Source: Lachnospiraceae bacterium
Lineage (GTDB): Bacteria > Bacillota > Clostridia > Lachnospirales > Lachnospiraceae
Direction: 5' to 3'
Length of the DNA: 32,013 nucleotides
Assembly: GCA_024680815.1 (NCBI GenBank)
Contig: JAILBQ010000114.1
Coordinates: 1-32,013, forward strand
This document shows, one piece after another, positions 27,623 through 32,013 of this stretch. A model generated the notes under the pieces. That model did not search any database. It was not told the origin of the DNA and saw nothing but the letters and a program-made list of their open reading frames with translations. The position numbers were made by a program, and so were the translations under genes. Position 1 is the first letter of the stretch, and each line of letters starts with the position of its first letter.

Positions 27623-27657
27623 CCCGGAACAGGCACTTCCTGTCAGCCTGTTCCGGG
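27623..27657 (+). terminator. Hairpin downstream of the AIM24-family gene
   Basis: CCCGGAACAGGC (27623-27634) and GCCTGTTCCGGG (27646-27657) form a perfect 12-bp stem with an 11-nt loop, 14 nt after the stop. The tail GTTATCAATATCTT is only moderately T-rich, so termination may be incomplete. Confidence 0.65.
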
Positions 27658-27731: not shown

Positions 27732-30296
27732 TTATTCCGGGTTCTCTGTCTTTTTCCAGTTGTTTTTGTCGAAAATATTGTCATGCACAGCATACCACGA
27801 TCTGTCGGAGGTATCAAAGGTATTGCCGTTGTATTTCAACACGTCCCAGTGGCGGGACATTGTAACAAGCTGATCGTGGGCGGTCTTTTCGTCACTGTTG
27901 ATCTCCTTTCCGGTAAAAGGGTTGACCGGATTGTCTATCAGCCCTTCCACGGCAAGCGCAGGCGCATCCGCATGTGTCATAAACTCATCCGATATATTAA
28001 ACTCCTTTGCGTCAAAATCTTTATACAAAAACAGCGGATTCACATCCATCATATCATCATCATCAATTAAGAGGCTTTCCACCTCATGCAGCCTCCGCCC
28101 ATGATCCGCCGCTATAATGATTCTGGTATTGTCATAAACGCCGTTTTCTTTTAAATAGTCCAGCCATTTCCCTATCTGAAGCATGGCTGCCATATTCACG
28201 TAATAGTGATTGGGTTTTTCCAGATCCAGCACATTTCCTTCGTCATCTGTCCTGAAATAAGTCTCAAGCCCGGAGTTCCTGACATTCCCTGCCGGTTCAT
28301 AGTACGGAAGCTGAAGCTCCTGAGGCTCATGGGTAATATCATTTACCAGAGAAAAATATGTATTATCCGGAGAATCATCCACCATAGTCATGGAGCCCAG
28401 ATTCTCCAAAACAACATATGAATCCATAAAAGCCGCTTTTGTAAACGGATCAGTGTTTTCCGAAAGATAGAGCCTGTAATCTCCTTCACAATACACGGCA
28501 CGCTGAAGCAGGGTCGGAGCCACCTTAAAAACGCTGTACATGAAAAATACCCGTTTCCGGGTTGTCGCCCTTGCCTGCTGTGCCGGCTGGGCATTCGGAT
28601 TCCGCGTATTATAAGCGTCAATCTCAGGATAAGCATCAAATATGGATAAATCTCCTGCATAATGATAATTGACATACGGAGGGTCGCATACCGTCGTTTT
28701 AAAACCGTTTTCCGAAAAAAGCACCGGAAGCATCAGATCAGCTTCATTCTGCTTGGAAGCCAGGGATTCCGAAGAACGCTTATTTATCTCCGTCGGAGTA
28801 TATTCATAGCCGCCAAACAGCGGCGGCGTACCGATATTGGTACAGGTTCCGAAGGAAATCGTATTCGGAAAAAGGGTGAAACCGGAAAACTGCTCCTTAA
28901 GCTCCGGCTTTTCCGCAAATATGTAGGGACCGTACACACCTATCGCACGATCCAGCATGATAAAGACAACATTTTTCCCTGTTTTACTGAGCGTAAGTAT
29001 CTGATCAGACTTCACATCAATCCTGTCCGAACTGATATAATCCGAATCCTTCAAAACCTTTCCGATGTTAATAATATTTATTAAAGACATGATTATCAGG
29101 CTGATGAGTCCCACAAGATAAATCCAGGCGAGGTTCTTCCTGAATCTTCTCCAAATCACAAAAAACAGTGCAATAATCACACACAGCAGAATAATATTTC
29201 CCGCCCGGTTCCAAAGGCTGTAATACGGCTCTTCATCAAAAACAAGAAACGATGACATGGTTCCGAGGTTTTTTCCGAAGAAAAAATAATCCGCAAGAAA
29301 TATGCCGCTAAGACAGAAAACCGCAAAACAGAATCTGTCCCTGATACGTGCCGTGGCCAGTGCGTAAAAAATCGAGAACCAGAGCAGAAACATTCCGGCG
29401 GAAACACAGAAGGTATTAAAAACATATACCAGCGGATTCCGGCTTGCGTCCGCTTCTATAAATTCCGTAGGGGAAGAAGCGATCACAGCCGAAGGGATCA
29501 GCAGGCCCATAAGAACCGCCAGCAGCGCAACCCCCGTAATAAACACGCGAAGGGGAGCATATGATTTTTCTTCCGGAGCCGGTTCCGTCTTCGTGTCCAC
29601 GGCCGGTTTTTCTTTGTTTCCGGACAGCTTCAGAAGCTTCGTAAAAACATTCTTCAGGAGAGAAAAAAGATTGTTCAGGGTCCAGTAGAAAACCAGCCCG
29701 GACGGTCTGTTATACAGCAAAACCAGGAAGATAACCGCGATCGCGTAAAGCTGCCACTTGTTTTTCCAGGAAAATCCACGTGTGTAGATCGCCGCGGAGC
29801 AGAAATTGAACAGCGTCATCAGAATCGGTAAAAGATTTACGGAAAAGGCCCCGAGTCTTATCAGCGCATCCGGCTGCGACAGATCAGAAATAAACAGGAA
29901 GCTTGCCCCGTTAAGCTTCGACAGATGAGATAAAAAATGATACGCGGCAATAAAAAACGGAATTTGCAGCAGAAGCGACACGGAGCTTCGAAGCGTATAA
30001 TAGGGCTGATAATGCTGTTCCCGGTAATAAGCCGAAAGCATCATCACCCGCTCGTCTCCTTTGAAGTGTTTGCGGATGTGATCAGTCCAGCGGGACATCT
30101 CTTCCTGCTTGTTTCGCTCCGCCTCCTGAATCGCGTCCGCCCGTTTATACAGCGGATAGGCCAGGAAGTTTACGATCAGGCTGACGCCGATAATGGCAAT
30201 ACCGGGATTACCGCTGATATGATGGATGGTGTAAAACGCTACCTCAATGATCAGTTCGATCGGATATATTATAAAATAATAGAGAATATTCCCCAT
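27732..30296 (-). CDS. YidC/Oxa1-like domain fused to membrane sulfatase/phosphotransferase domain
   Basis: An 854-residue membrane protein. Residues 1-225 resemble YidC/Oxa1 insertases: IIGVSLIVNFLAYPLYKRADAIQ for the first core helix, the coiled hairpin (about 55-100, MLSAYYREQHYQPYY), SVSLLLQIPFFIAAYHFL and RPSGLVFYWTLNNLFSLLKN. The groove Arg expected in the TLIVR motif is Asn43. Residues about 246-410 hold four or five helices. Residues about 440-800 are an alkaline-phosphatase/sulfatase-superfamily domain: metal Asp449 in FIMLDR, candidate nucleophile Thr in TCTNIGTPPLFGGYEY (484-490), His656 in ITHEPQ, and D731-H732 in AADHGRR. This catalytic class transfers phosphoglycerol, phosphoethanolamine or sulfate in envelope glycans. 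The start is ATG 30296 behind GAGG. It follows a paralogue by 26 nt. Substrate is unknown; the fusion is an inference from sequence pattern. Confidence 0.8.
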   Translation of the reverse strand: MGNILYYFIIYPIELIIEVAFYTIHHISGNPGIAIIGVSLIVNFLAYPLYKRADAIQEAERNKQEEMSRWTDHIRKHFKGDERVMMLSAYYREQHYQPYYTLRSSVSLLLQIPFFIAAYHFLSHLSKLNGASFLFISDLSQPDALIRLGAFSVNLLPILMTLFNFCSAAIYTRGFSWKNKWQLYAIAVIFLVLLYNRPSGLVFYWTLNNLFSLLKNVFTKLLKLSGNKEKPAVDTKTEPAPEEKSYAPLRVFITGVALLAVLMGLLIPSAVIASSPTEFIEADASRNPLVYVFNTFCVSAGMFLLWFSIFYALATARIRDRFCFAVFCLSGIFLADYFFFGKNLGTMSSFLVFDEEPYYSLWNRAGNIILLCVIIALFFVIWRRFRKNLAWIYLVGLISLIIMSLINIINIGKVLKDSDYISSDRIDVKSDQILTLSKTGKNVVFIMLDRAIGVYGPYIFAEKPELKEQFSGFTLFPNTISFGTCTNIGTPPLFGGYEYTPTEINKRSSESLASKQNEADLMLPVLFSENGFKTTVCDPPYVNYHYAGDLSIFDAYPEIDAYNTRNPNAQPAQQARATTRKRVFFMYSVFKVAPTLLQRAVYCEGDYRLYLSENTDPFTKAAFMDSYVVLENLGSMTMVDDSPDNTYFSLVNDITHEPQELQLPYYEPAGNVRNSGLETYFRTDDEGNVLDLEKPNHYYVNMAAMLQIGKWLDYLKENGVYDNTRIIIAADHGRRLHEVESLLIDDDDMMDVNPLFLYKDFDAKEFNISDEFMTHADAPALAVEGLIDNPVNPFTGKEINSDEKTAHDQLVTMSRHWDVLKYNGNTFDTSDRSWYAVHDNIFDKNNWKKTENPE

Positions 30297-30322
30297 TTAC
30301 AAGCCTCGTTAAAACTTCGGAT

Positions 30323-32013
30323 CTATTCCGCCTTTAACCATATCTCCCAATTATCTTTAACGAAAATATCATCATGAACAGAGTACCAGTCCGCGTCCGA
30401 GGTATCAAAAACATTTCCGTTGTTGGTAAGGACATCCCAGTTGCTTGACATCGTCACCAGCTGTTTATGAGCGTACTTTTCCTCATTATTGACGGCTTTC
30501 CCCGTAAACGGATTAACCGGGTTGTCTATTATCCCTCCTACAGCCAGGGTTGGCGCGTCTGCGTTTGTCATGAATTCATCGGAAATTTCAAACCCGTGAG
30601 CATCAAAGTCCTTAAACAGAAACATAGGGTTTACATCCATCATGTTATAATCGTCAATCTTCAGGGCATCGATATGGCTTCTGGCCCTGCCGTGGTCTGC
30701 CGCAATTATGATGCGCGTATTATCGTATACGCCGTTCTCCTTAAGGTAGTCCAGCCATTTCCCCAGAAGAAGAATCGCAGCCATGTTGGTATGATAGTGC
30801 TTGGGATTTCCCAGATTAAACTCATTTCCTTTATCATCCGTTCTGACCTTGTTTTCCAGACCGTCATTATGAACCTCCTCCGCCACCTCATAGTCCGGCA
30901 GCTGCAGCACCTGAGGCTCATGCGTCAGATTGTTTATCATCGAAAAATATGTATTCCTGTCCGAATCCTCCACAAGAGTCATGTTAATCATATTGTCCAG
31001 TACAGTATAGGATTCCATAAACGCCGCCATGCTGAAGGAATCGGTGTCTTCATCAAGAAACAGGCGATAGTCCCCACCGCTGTATATCTGACGCTGTATC
31101 AGTGTTGGCGCCACTTTGAAAACACTGTACATAAAAAATACCTGTTTCCGGTATTCTTCTCTTGCCTGCTGATGTGGCTGGGCGTTCGGATTGCGGGTAT
31201 TATAGGCGTTTATTTCCGGATAATCATCAAAAATCGATAAATCCCCGGCATAATGATAATTGACATACGGAGGATCGCAGACCGTCGTTTTAAAACCGTT
31301 TTCCGAAAAAAGTACCGGAAGCATCAGATCAGCTTCATTCTGCTTGGAAGCCAGAGATTCCGAAGAACGCTTATTAATTTCAGTCGGTGAATATTCATAG
31401 CCCCCGAAAAGCGAGGGGGTTGTGAAATTGGTATATGCACCAAAGGAGATGGTATTGGGGTAGAGGGAAAAGCCGTCATATATTTCTTTCAGCTCCGGTT
31501 TTTCCGCAAAAATATATGGCCCGTAATATCCGATCGCCCGGTCCAGCATGATAAAGACAACATTCTTTCCGGTTCTGCTAAGAGTCAGAATCTTATCGGA
31601 GGTTACGTCGATTTTATCGGAACGGATATAATCCGTATCAGAGAGAACCCGTGAGGTTTTCACCACGTTAATTACCGACATTGCTAAAAGGCTCAAAATT
31701 GCGACAATATAAACCCAATGAAGCATTTTTGCCGCGTAACGCCAGACAAGCCACAGCAATAATACTATTCCGCAAAGCAGACTTAAATTCCCGATGCGGT
31801 TGAAGAGAGTATAAGAAGGTTCATCATCAAAAATCAGAAGTGAAGACATATTTCCCAGATTCCTGCCGAAAAACAGGTAATCCGCAAGAAAAACACCGCA
31901 AAAACACAGGATCAGGAAACACATTCCCTTTCTGACCCTGGCAGTGGCAAGCGCATAGAAAATGGAGAACCAGAGTAAAAACATTCCCGCAGCGACACAA
32001 AACGTATATAATA
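30323..32013 (-). CDS. Paralogous membrane sulfatase-superfamily protein (5' partial)
   Basis: The frame is open to the right edge, so the N-terminus is missing; the visible 563 residues align from about residue 293 of the downstream gene's product to its end. The visible part has the last four membrane helices (MFLLWFSIFYALATARV onward) and the complete catalytic domain: FIMLDRAIGYYGPYIF, TNFTTPSLFGGYEYSPTEIN, LTHEPQ and AADHGRARSH. A block of about 50 residues from NKRSSESLASKQNEAD through HYAGDLSIFD is identical in the two proteins. Whether this copy also begins with a YidC-like domain cannot be seen. It is upstream of, and probably co-transcribed with, the complete copy. Confidence 0.85.
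   Translation of the reverse strand, partial: LYTFCVAAGMFLLWFSIFYALATARVRKGMCFLILCFCGVFLADYLFFGRNLGNMSSLLIFDDEPSYTLFNRIGNLSLLCGIVLLLWLVWRYAAKMLHWVYIVAILSLLAMSVINVVKTSRVLSDTDYIRSDKIDVTSDKILTLSRTGKNVVFIMLDRAIGYYGPYIFAEKPELKEIYDGFSLYPNTISFGAYTNFTTPSLFGGYEYSPTEINKRSSESLASKQNEADLMLPVLFSENGFKTTVCDPPYVNYHYAGDLSIFDDYPEINAYNTRNPNAQPHQQAREEYRKQVFFMYSVFKVAPTLIQRQIYSGGDYRLFLDEDTDSFSMAAFMESYTVLDNMINMTLVEDSDRNTYFSMINNLTHEPQVLQLPDYEVAEEVHNDGLENKVRTDDKGNEFNLGNPKHYHTNMAAILLLGKWLDYLKENGVYDNTRIIIAADHGRARSHIDALKIDDYNMMDVNPMFLFKDFDAHGFEISDEFMTNADAPTLAVGGIIDNPVNPFTGKAVNNEEKYAHKQLVTMSSNWDVLTNNGNVFDTSDADWYSVHDDIFVKDNWEIWLKAE

Follow-up and report, generated by a model that had tools for sequence, protein, structure and literature searches.

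A YidC/Oxa1-like domain fused to a predicted external alkaline-phosphatase-superfamily enzyme in Lachnospiraceae and other bacteria, and its TagF-like partner

The stretch of DNA analyzed here (the window) is 32,013 nucleotides long and is the whole of contig JAILBQ010000114.1 (C64) of the Lachnospiraceae bacterium assembly GCA_024680815.1. Toward its right-hand end lies a minus-strand gene that joins a YidC/Oxa1-like domain to a helical linker and a C-terminal catalytic domain of the alkaline phosphatase superfamily (Pfam Sulfatase); we refer to it as the YidC-sulfatase fusion (Table 1). It belongs to a family whose members, in most well-flanked loci, adjoin a TagF/TarL-like transferase with PF04464, here called GT, and are often accompanied by donor-making genes. 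We consider it likely that the family serves a pathway that decorates the cell surface with phospho or phosphono groups.

A preliminary description of this DNA, made from the sequence alone, reported one uninterrupted frame with YidC and sulfatase-superfamily parts and gave no strand for it. The frame is open on the minus strand, from 30296 to 27732, and the plus strand read from 27732 contains stops. All of the motifs quoted in that description are present: LIVNFLAYPLYKR at residues 40-52, LLLQIPFFIAAYHF at 108-121, and GLVFYWTLNNLFS at 200-212 in the YidC part, and FIMLDR at 445-450, THEPQ at 655-659, and AADHGRR at 729-735 in the catalytic part. The description knew of no other protein of this layout and raised the chance that an assembly error had joined two genes. 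Reading 98 loci, we found 113 two-domain frames in 89 of them, the window included, which rules out an assembly or annotation artifact; the fusion is real. This count holds a few contigs twice (L051/L052 and L044/L093), and the duplicates were removed before later counts. Nor is the layout a one-off: at least 591 stretches in named genomes match peptide patterns of the protein, and at least 575 encode a relative, so the family is large.

The YidC-like N terminus proposed earlier was borne out by profile searches. The domain passes both curated cutoffs for YidC/Oxa1, with 84.3 bits against 35 for Pfam 60KD_IMP (PF02096) and 88.9 bits against 84.3 for NCBIfam yidC_oxa1_cterm (TIGR03592), and a genome-wide PF02096 search matched the same place of the fusion with 89.2 bits. 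A profile built from 105 family members matched Escherichia coli YidC chains (4.4e-12 to 8.1e-12) and B. halodurans YidC2 (4.2e-9). Hydropathy and charge fit a five-helix YidC core with an inner C1 loop and an N-out/C-in topology, the last two helices forming a single merged peak; averaged over the 105 proteins, a Lys/Arg-rich inner loop of 52 residues spans positions 51-102. Judged by these predictions, helix order and C1 loop appear to be those of YidC/Oxa1. The fusion differs from YidC/Oxa1 in the added enzyme, in the residues at the groove Arg position (below), in a Lys or Arg at position 103 (96 of 104 readable fusion rows; G, S, or A in 22 canonical rows), and in forming a separate clade: a tree of 59 YidC domains places the 31 rows for fusions, which were chosen one per locus from the 105, on one side of a branch with support of 100/100. 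Within the YidC part, T161, N164, W205, and N208 are each present in 105/105 proteins. Polar helix residues of this kind are compatible with lipid head groups, which is not proof that they meet them.

Asn43 was earlier placed at the position of the hydrophilic-groove Arg of YidC, and the loss of this Arg was taken as an argument that insertion had been lost. The placement stands, since Asn43 pairs with the E. coli groove Arg in a phmmer alignment and the position reads N in 94, S in 8, and Q in 2 readable family rows, with positive charge absent throughout. The argument does not stand. Housekeeping YidC of the window's genus has Tyr at this position in 12/12 copies, three of which are nearly identical in sequence, so the loss is uninformative, and we rejected it as a sign of lost insertase activity. 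A positively charged groove residue does not, in this genus, define the family. In ten other YidC proteins of the order the residue is Arg (8) or Lys (2), and a second type of fusion, YidC-GT (described below), has Lys or Arg in 5/5. The Tyr of the genus housekeeping copies is relevant to anyone who treats the groove Arg as essential.

The linker, earlier estimated at four to five helices, shows five hydrophobic peaks. In the family mean, an inner loop at 205-249 is followed by peaks at 260, 305, 331, 373, and 400, and Lys and Arg fall mostly on alternate loops, so that the catalytic domain is then predicted to lie outside. By a hydropathy scan whose threshold we set ourselves, the predicted helices between the end of the YidC part and the catalytic domain number 7 in 69 proteins, 5 in 27, 6 in 6, and 8 in 3 (n = 105); the count is odd, putting the enzyme outside, in 96 and even in 9. 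Longer family members carry extra inserted helices.

The catalytic domain matches PF00884 over residues 441-777 (1.6e-7; 31.4 bits against a cutoff of 25), and its Asp731-His732 region aligns with PDB sulfatases and a phosphonate monoester hydrolase. Sulfatases proper have a Cys or Ser nucleophile that is converted to formylglycine, and LtaS/EptA-type enzymes have a Thr nucleophile in an external domain that follows membrane helices. In the fusion family, the expected nucleophile column, assigned by position and not by structure, is Thr (Thr486) in 105/105 and never the Cys or Ser of sulfatases. The fusion resembles LtaS/EptA-type enzymes in its helices followed by a predicted external domain and in an invariant Thr, an invariant Asp, and an invariant Asp-His pair; it differs from them in its YidC core and in the GT partner of most relatives. 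Thr486 as nucleophile would favor an LtaS/EptA-type phosphotransferase over a sulfatase. The external domain gave no significant match to EptB, EptC, OpgE, OpgB, or BcsG, the five E. coli transferases with which it was compared, and so looks like its own subfamily of the alkaline phosphatase superfamily. A motif expected in such transferases was absent from all five of these proteins and played no part in the assignment. The earlier assignment holds at the level of the superfamily; "sulfatase" was too loose a name, given the Thr, and LtaS/OpgB/EptA too precise a one, since none of the five, OpgB among them, matches significantly.

Table 1. Positions in the window of the YidC-sulfatase fusion, its parts, and its tandem copy
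Feature	Position	Strand	Remarks
YidC-sulfatase fusion gene	27732..30296	minus	854 aa; ATG at 30296, stop 27732-27734
YidC/Oxa1-like domain, residues 32-219; core helices and conserved inner C1 loop	29640..30203	minus	PF02096 1.2e-23
Asn43, at YidC groove Arg position	30168..30170	minus	N/S/Q in 104/104 readable family rows
Five-helix linker, residues ~250-411	29064..29549	minus	five hydrophobic peaks; positive charges on predicted inner loops
Catalytic domain of alkaline phosphatase superfamily (Pfam Sulfatase), predicted external, residues 436-854	27735..28991	minus	PF00884
Asp449 (MLDR), probable metal ligand	28950..28952	minus	invariant 105/105
Thr486, probable nucleophile	28839..28841	minus	invariant 105/105
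His656 (THEP), probable substrate or metal residue	28329..28331	minus	invariant 105/105
Asp731-His732 (DHG), probable metal ligands	28101..28106	minus	invariant 105/105
26-bp gap between tandem copies	30297..30322	minus	GAGG shortly 5' of ATG (sequence)
Tandem paralog, 562 aa readable, contig end cuts gene	30323..32011	minus	stop at 30323

Clustering of 1302 mechanically called proteins from the 98 loci yielded one recurrent companion, GT. Open reading frames (ORFs) were called by length, which missed some genes (the fusion of locus L078 was lost); clusters are single-linkage, and in most loci a gene takes its name from the cluster of its protein, of which one or a few representatives were scanned. 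Before stand-alone GT was counted, YidC-GT fusions and the canonical YidC of L050 were taken out. Both the two-domain order of the preliminary description and this gene neighbor recur across genomes. We kept 79 named loci, each matching most of the query, in which the order is conserved; dropping 2 duplicates, 1 locus without a called fusion (L078), and 23 with short flanks left 53 well-flanked loci, of which 47 hold a stand-alone GT and 43 have it adjoining a fusion. A set of 87 loci that also includes hand-fetched stretches from the window's genus contains 110 fusions, 104 of them with a readable upstream side. Of these 104, 56 have GT as the immediate upstream gene in the same orientation and 11 as the immediate downstream gene; among the rest, 9 have a tandem fusion upstream and 28 fall into neither group. 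With starts taken mechanically, the gap between GT and fusion has a median of 1 bp (−154 to 219) and is ≤60 bp in 54/56. The commonest cluster from outside the pathway, ABC-ATPase-like by eye, occurs in 13 of the 98 loci.

GT has a median length of 422 aa among 70 stand-alone copies (407-721, by mechanical calling) and a single hydrophobic stretch at the N terminus, marked by the motif YIDPGTGSM or YIDPGTGGM. Its profile, which includes four YidC-GT fusions, matches three CDP-glycerol/CDP-ribitol transferases (CDP, cytidine diphosphate) of PF04464, namely Cps3D (1.7e-8), TagF (2.5e-6), and TarL (5.9e-5); in contrast to these, it is not a long polymerase. Within the genus GT is rare: 12 of 23 genomes hold stand-alone copies, 13 in all, and for 11 of these a fusion lies on the same contig within ~3 kb. 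Of the 23 genomes, 12 have both GT and fusion, 10 have neither, and 1 has only one of the two (Fisher 1e-5, uncorrected for kinship). Genus genomes carry several fusions each, and the link from fusion to GT is weaker than that from GT to fusion.

Donor-making genes (choline-kinase-like or phosphonate) occur in 34 of the 53 well-flanked named loci, and 43 of the 87 loci hold at least one donor gene besides GT and the EamA transporter. Across the 87, we counted nucleotidyltransferase (24), choline/ethanolamine-kinase-like (15), EamA transporter (11), phosphoenolpyruvate (PEP) mutase (9), phosphonopyruvate decarboxylase (9), a helix-turn-helix-nucleotidyltransferase-kinase fusion (9), a nucleotidyltransferase-aminotransferase fusion (6), aminoethylphosphonate (AEP) transaminase (5), Fe-alcohol dehydrogenase (4), and glycerol-phosphate-cytidylyltransferase-like (2) genes. 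The donor families include choline/ethanolamine kinase (PF01633) and MobA-like nucleotidyltransferase. Phosphonopyruvate decarboxylase scored 456 bits against a cutoff of 312.5 and AEP transaminase 418 against 360.8. One genome (G305) has a single co-directional run in the order fusion-GT-NTP-PhnW-PepM-Ppd.

Some donor genes have unusual architectures of their own. Nine loci encode proteins of ~600 aa (for example, L064:4588-6387), of which the representative combines a winged-helix DNA-binding domain with nucleotidyltransferase and choline-kinase-like domains; a self-regulating donor enzyme is possible from this domain order. In six loci (for example, L061:6898-8703; 601 aa in the scanned copy), a nucleotidyltransferase is fused to a class I/II aminotransferase, beside GT and the fusion.

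Kinase-like, nucleotidyltransferase, and transporter genes in the flanks of relatives resemble those of the Lic phosphocholine pathway, and PEP mutase, decarboxylase, transaminase, and nucleotidyltransferase genes those of the Pnt AEP pathway. The constant partners here differ from both, being the TagF-like transferase and the YidC-sulfatase fusion. According to excerpts of Rice et al. (2019; PMC6697681), LicD-like transferases or glycosyltransferases adjoin AEP genes, and the tailoring steps of phosphonate surfaces had remained enigmatic; the terms sulfatase, insertase, and glycerophosphotransferase have 0, 0, and 0 occurrences in that paper. Among the matches listed from the open-licence literature, judged by title or start of abstract, no paper describes the YidC-sulfatase architecture, and the string YIDPGTG was not found in that literature. 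The parts are of known kinds, and their combination appears to be new.

We considered residue 111 of the YidC part as a head group reader in the groove and rejected it. This residue is Gln in 22/22 canonical rows and Glu in 17/22 kinase-type and 3/13 phosphonate-type fusions (Fisher 0.004); many further positions also track the kinase and phosphonate classes, and the three independent pairs in the tree show nothing. The pattern reflects kinship.

The window's own genome encodes two further long YidC-domain proteins, of 652 and 712 aa, and in both PF04464 comes after the YidC domain. These YidC-GT fusions mirror the YidC-sulfatase fusion, and we read three more, two from the genus (one cut by a contig end) and one from another family. 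At L035:4265-12412 (own contig C134), genes named by Pfam class and cluster form a co-directional series: a sulfatase-like protein of 569 aa, PhnW, NTP, Ppd, a radical SAM protein, and the 712-aa YidC-GT. The 569-aa protein matches the catalytic profile of the fusions at 1.3e-14, with its Asp, Thr, and Asp-His regions aligned. On another contig of the same genome (C91; L034:5467-10431), YidC-GT lies beside a 647-aa nucleotidyltransferase plus cytidylyltransferase-like plus PEP-mutase protein and an Fe-alcohol dehydrogenase; this is perhaps a hydroxyethylphosphonate branch, its NCBIfam scores being below cutoff. In the 59-domain tree, the five YidC-GT rows fall on one side of a branch of their own (100/99). 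A first tree with truncated canonical rows, since replaced, grouped them with canonical copies (95/58); the second put them beside the YidC-sulfatase fusions (37/72), and constraining them to the canonical rows costs nothing (approximately unbiased test, p-AU 0.53). With the trees in disagreement and long branches in play, we dropped the idea of two separate YidC recruitments as not shown.

Two enzymes predicted on opposite faces of the membrane are thus each joined, in different proteins, to one kind of transmembrane module, and the most economical role for such a module is the step between them. The fusion would then be a membrane-bound envelope transferase working as one of three modules. 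In the first, cytosolic GT would draw on a CDP-linked donor (choline/ethanolamine-like or glycerol-like) or, alternatively, on a cytidine monophosphate-linked phosphonate such as AEP, and would place the head group on a lipid or lipid-linked glycan on the inner side. In the second, the YidC-like core would pass this lipid-linked donor across the bilayer via its hydrophilic groove. In the third, Thr486 of the external domain would accept the phosphoryl or phosphonyl group, and the domain would pass that group on to a surface polymer. We infer the donor, the acceptor, the nucleophile role of Thr486, and lipid translocation by the YidC core. As a whole, this explanation seems to us somewhat better than an even bet; donor translocation by the YidC module falls a little short of that. 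The preliminary description had already suggested that the insertase fold was reused to move a lipid-linked donor, an idea that the gene context of the relatives fits and that loses its groove Arg argument.

A published study (PMC10491306) found lipid scrambling in liposomes for E. coli YidC, yeast Oxa1, and Get1, and in simulation for every Oxa1 family member that it tested. A YidC-like core fused at the gene level to enzymes predicted on both membrane faces makes scrambling as a function directly testable. If our reading is true, the family would be an example from nature of an insertase-type core whose very function is to scramble lipids, and it would help to explain how phosphonate and phosphocholine-type surfaces are made in the gut. 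More tentatively still, a YidC/Oxa1 core may have become a dedicated lipid-donor translocator in two clades, giving a LicD-independent, three-module route for choline-, ethanolamine-, or phosphonate-type surface groups. Annotators would then have reason to suspect that certain "YidC" matches in rumen genomes may represent enzymes of a pathway.

Several observations weigh against this explanation. The window itself holds neither GT nor a donor gene; protein clustering placed none of its other called proteins in those clusters. Genome G019 has a fusion and no GT, and the fetched genus stretches with a fusion hold GT in only 4/10 (4/8 contigs). Forty-four of the 87 loci lack a recognized donor gene, and 18 hold nothing recognized; 8 of these 18 are <14 kb and 10 are ≥14 kb, the longer ones mostly from the window's genus and including the window. 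The kinase has as its top NCBIfam match a different kinase family, below cutoff, and the PEP-mutase protein of the window's own genome scores 135.5 against an NCBIfam cutoff of 319.55, yet lies above Pfam's. Because both fall short of the NCBIfam cutoffs, the head groups of the pathway are guesses. To these must be added the lack of a match between the external domain and the five E. coli transferases, the failure of the trees to settle a separate origin of the two YidC fusion types, and contig C51 of the window's own genome, where a stand-alone GT lies beside three sulfatase-like genes with no YidC domain. The YidC module is therefore not always needed.

Contig C51 also agrees with an inert scaffold, in which the YidC module would be a membrane anchor uniting the external enzyme with GT and the donor would cross by a different flippase or by scrambling spontaneously, and the uncharged residues in place of the groove Arg point the same way. 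We nevertheless think a scaffold rather unlikely, since the conservation of the YidC part at the four invariant positions named above exceeds what a simple anchor needs.

Continued service as an insertase or chaperone, for its own catalytic partner or for a pathway protein such as GT, is unlikely as well. The fusion exceeds the NCBIfam YidC cutoff and appears to retain the YidC helices and C1 loop. YidC can insert proteins that have a short N-terminal hydrophobic stretch, and the N terminus of GT is such a stretch, apparently a single membrane helix. Among the 18 genus genomes in which the fusion is readable, the PF02096 search detected a separate housekeeping YidC in only 5 (G000, G005, G026, G029, and G032), which on presence data would permit a replacement role. 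However, housekeeping YidC is equally seldom found in genus genomes without any fusion match (7/18); because the rates are low and similar with and without a fusion, they point to draft or search gaps, without proving that every fusion carrier retains a housekeeping copy, and G032 (3 contigs, 99% complete) has a housekeeping YidC beside the fusion in the same genome. Moreover, the YidC part of the fusions forms a single clade on a long stem, well separated from the housekeeping copies, and its C terminus continues into more helices, leaving no free inner tail. Insertion also leaves unexplained the choice of fusion partner, GT in one YidC clade and an external enzyme in the other. Genome G056 encodes a stand-alone 219-aa YidC-like protein (L038:6611-7270) apart from its 328-aa YidC.

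The PDB matches of the external domain, which are sulfatases and phosphonate monoester hydrolases, would suit a true sulfatase, or a hydrolase of phosphate or phosphonate esters, whose substrates are glycans of the environment or of the cell itself, a reading we find improbable because most of those matches span little beyond the DHG region, the expected nucleophile column is Thr in every protein, and the recognized neighbors look donor-making.

As for the spread of the family, a survey of the window's genus gave a match in 19 of 37 genomes (the window's own included), with the YidC part readable in 18; in the other (G035), only the sulfatase part is readable, at a contig edge. In the rest of the order, 24 genomes of families other than the window's gave no full match, and two of them showed the DHG-motif region only. 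In an even sample of the phylum searched at E 1e-80, the match was confined to 2 of 249 genomes, the window's own and one of the same family. Since the phylum-wide sample gave so few, the family seems to be clustered rather than general across the phylum, judging from these searches. Among the 79 named loci are those of the culturable rumen bacterium Schwartzia succinivorans DSM 10502 (L096), of Lachnospiraceae bacterium XBD2001, and of Ruminococcaceae bacterium AB4001, together with records labeled Coriobacteriales and Treponema; the two Treponema loci are contigs of <5 kb, assigned by label. We also considered a phage or plasmid origin of the fusion and rejected it: the peptide patterns gave 8 matches in viral contigs and none was a relative, and none of 29 matching plasmid records covered 80% of the query, the 20 matches listed lying all within the YidC part.

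Downstream of the fusion in the window, a convergent AIM24-family gene lies on the opposite strand, with a dihydroorotate-dehydrogenase-like gene farther out; these are the two neighbors that we scanned. Between the AIM24 gene and the fusion is a 12-bp perfect inverted repeat (27623-27657), with no T run after it on either strand. On the other side, the tandem paralog is 71% identical to fusion residues 295-848 and matches Pfam Sulfatase at 1.9e-7; the part that would hold any YidC domain lies beyond the contig end. Elsewhere, L118 holds five consecutive YidC-sulfatase fusions with one GT among them, a tandem expansion of the family. The fusion copy at L053 is broken by an in-frame TAG into 579 and 254 aa, and on contig C172 of genome G006 (L146), short, stop-interrupted fusion-like pieces lie ~1.3 kb from GT, apparently a decayed copy.

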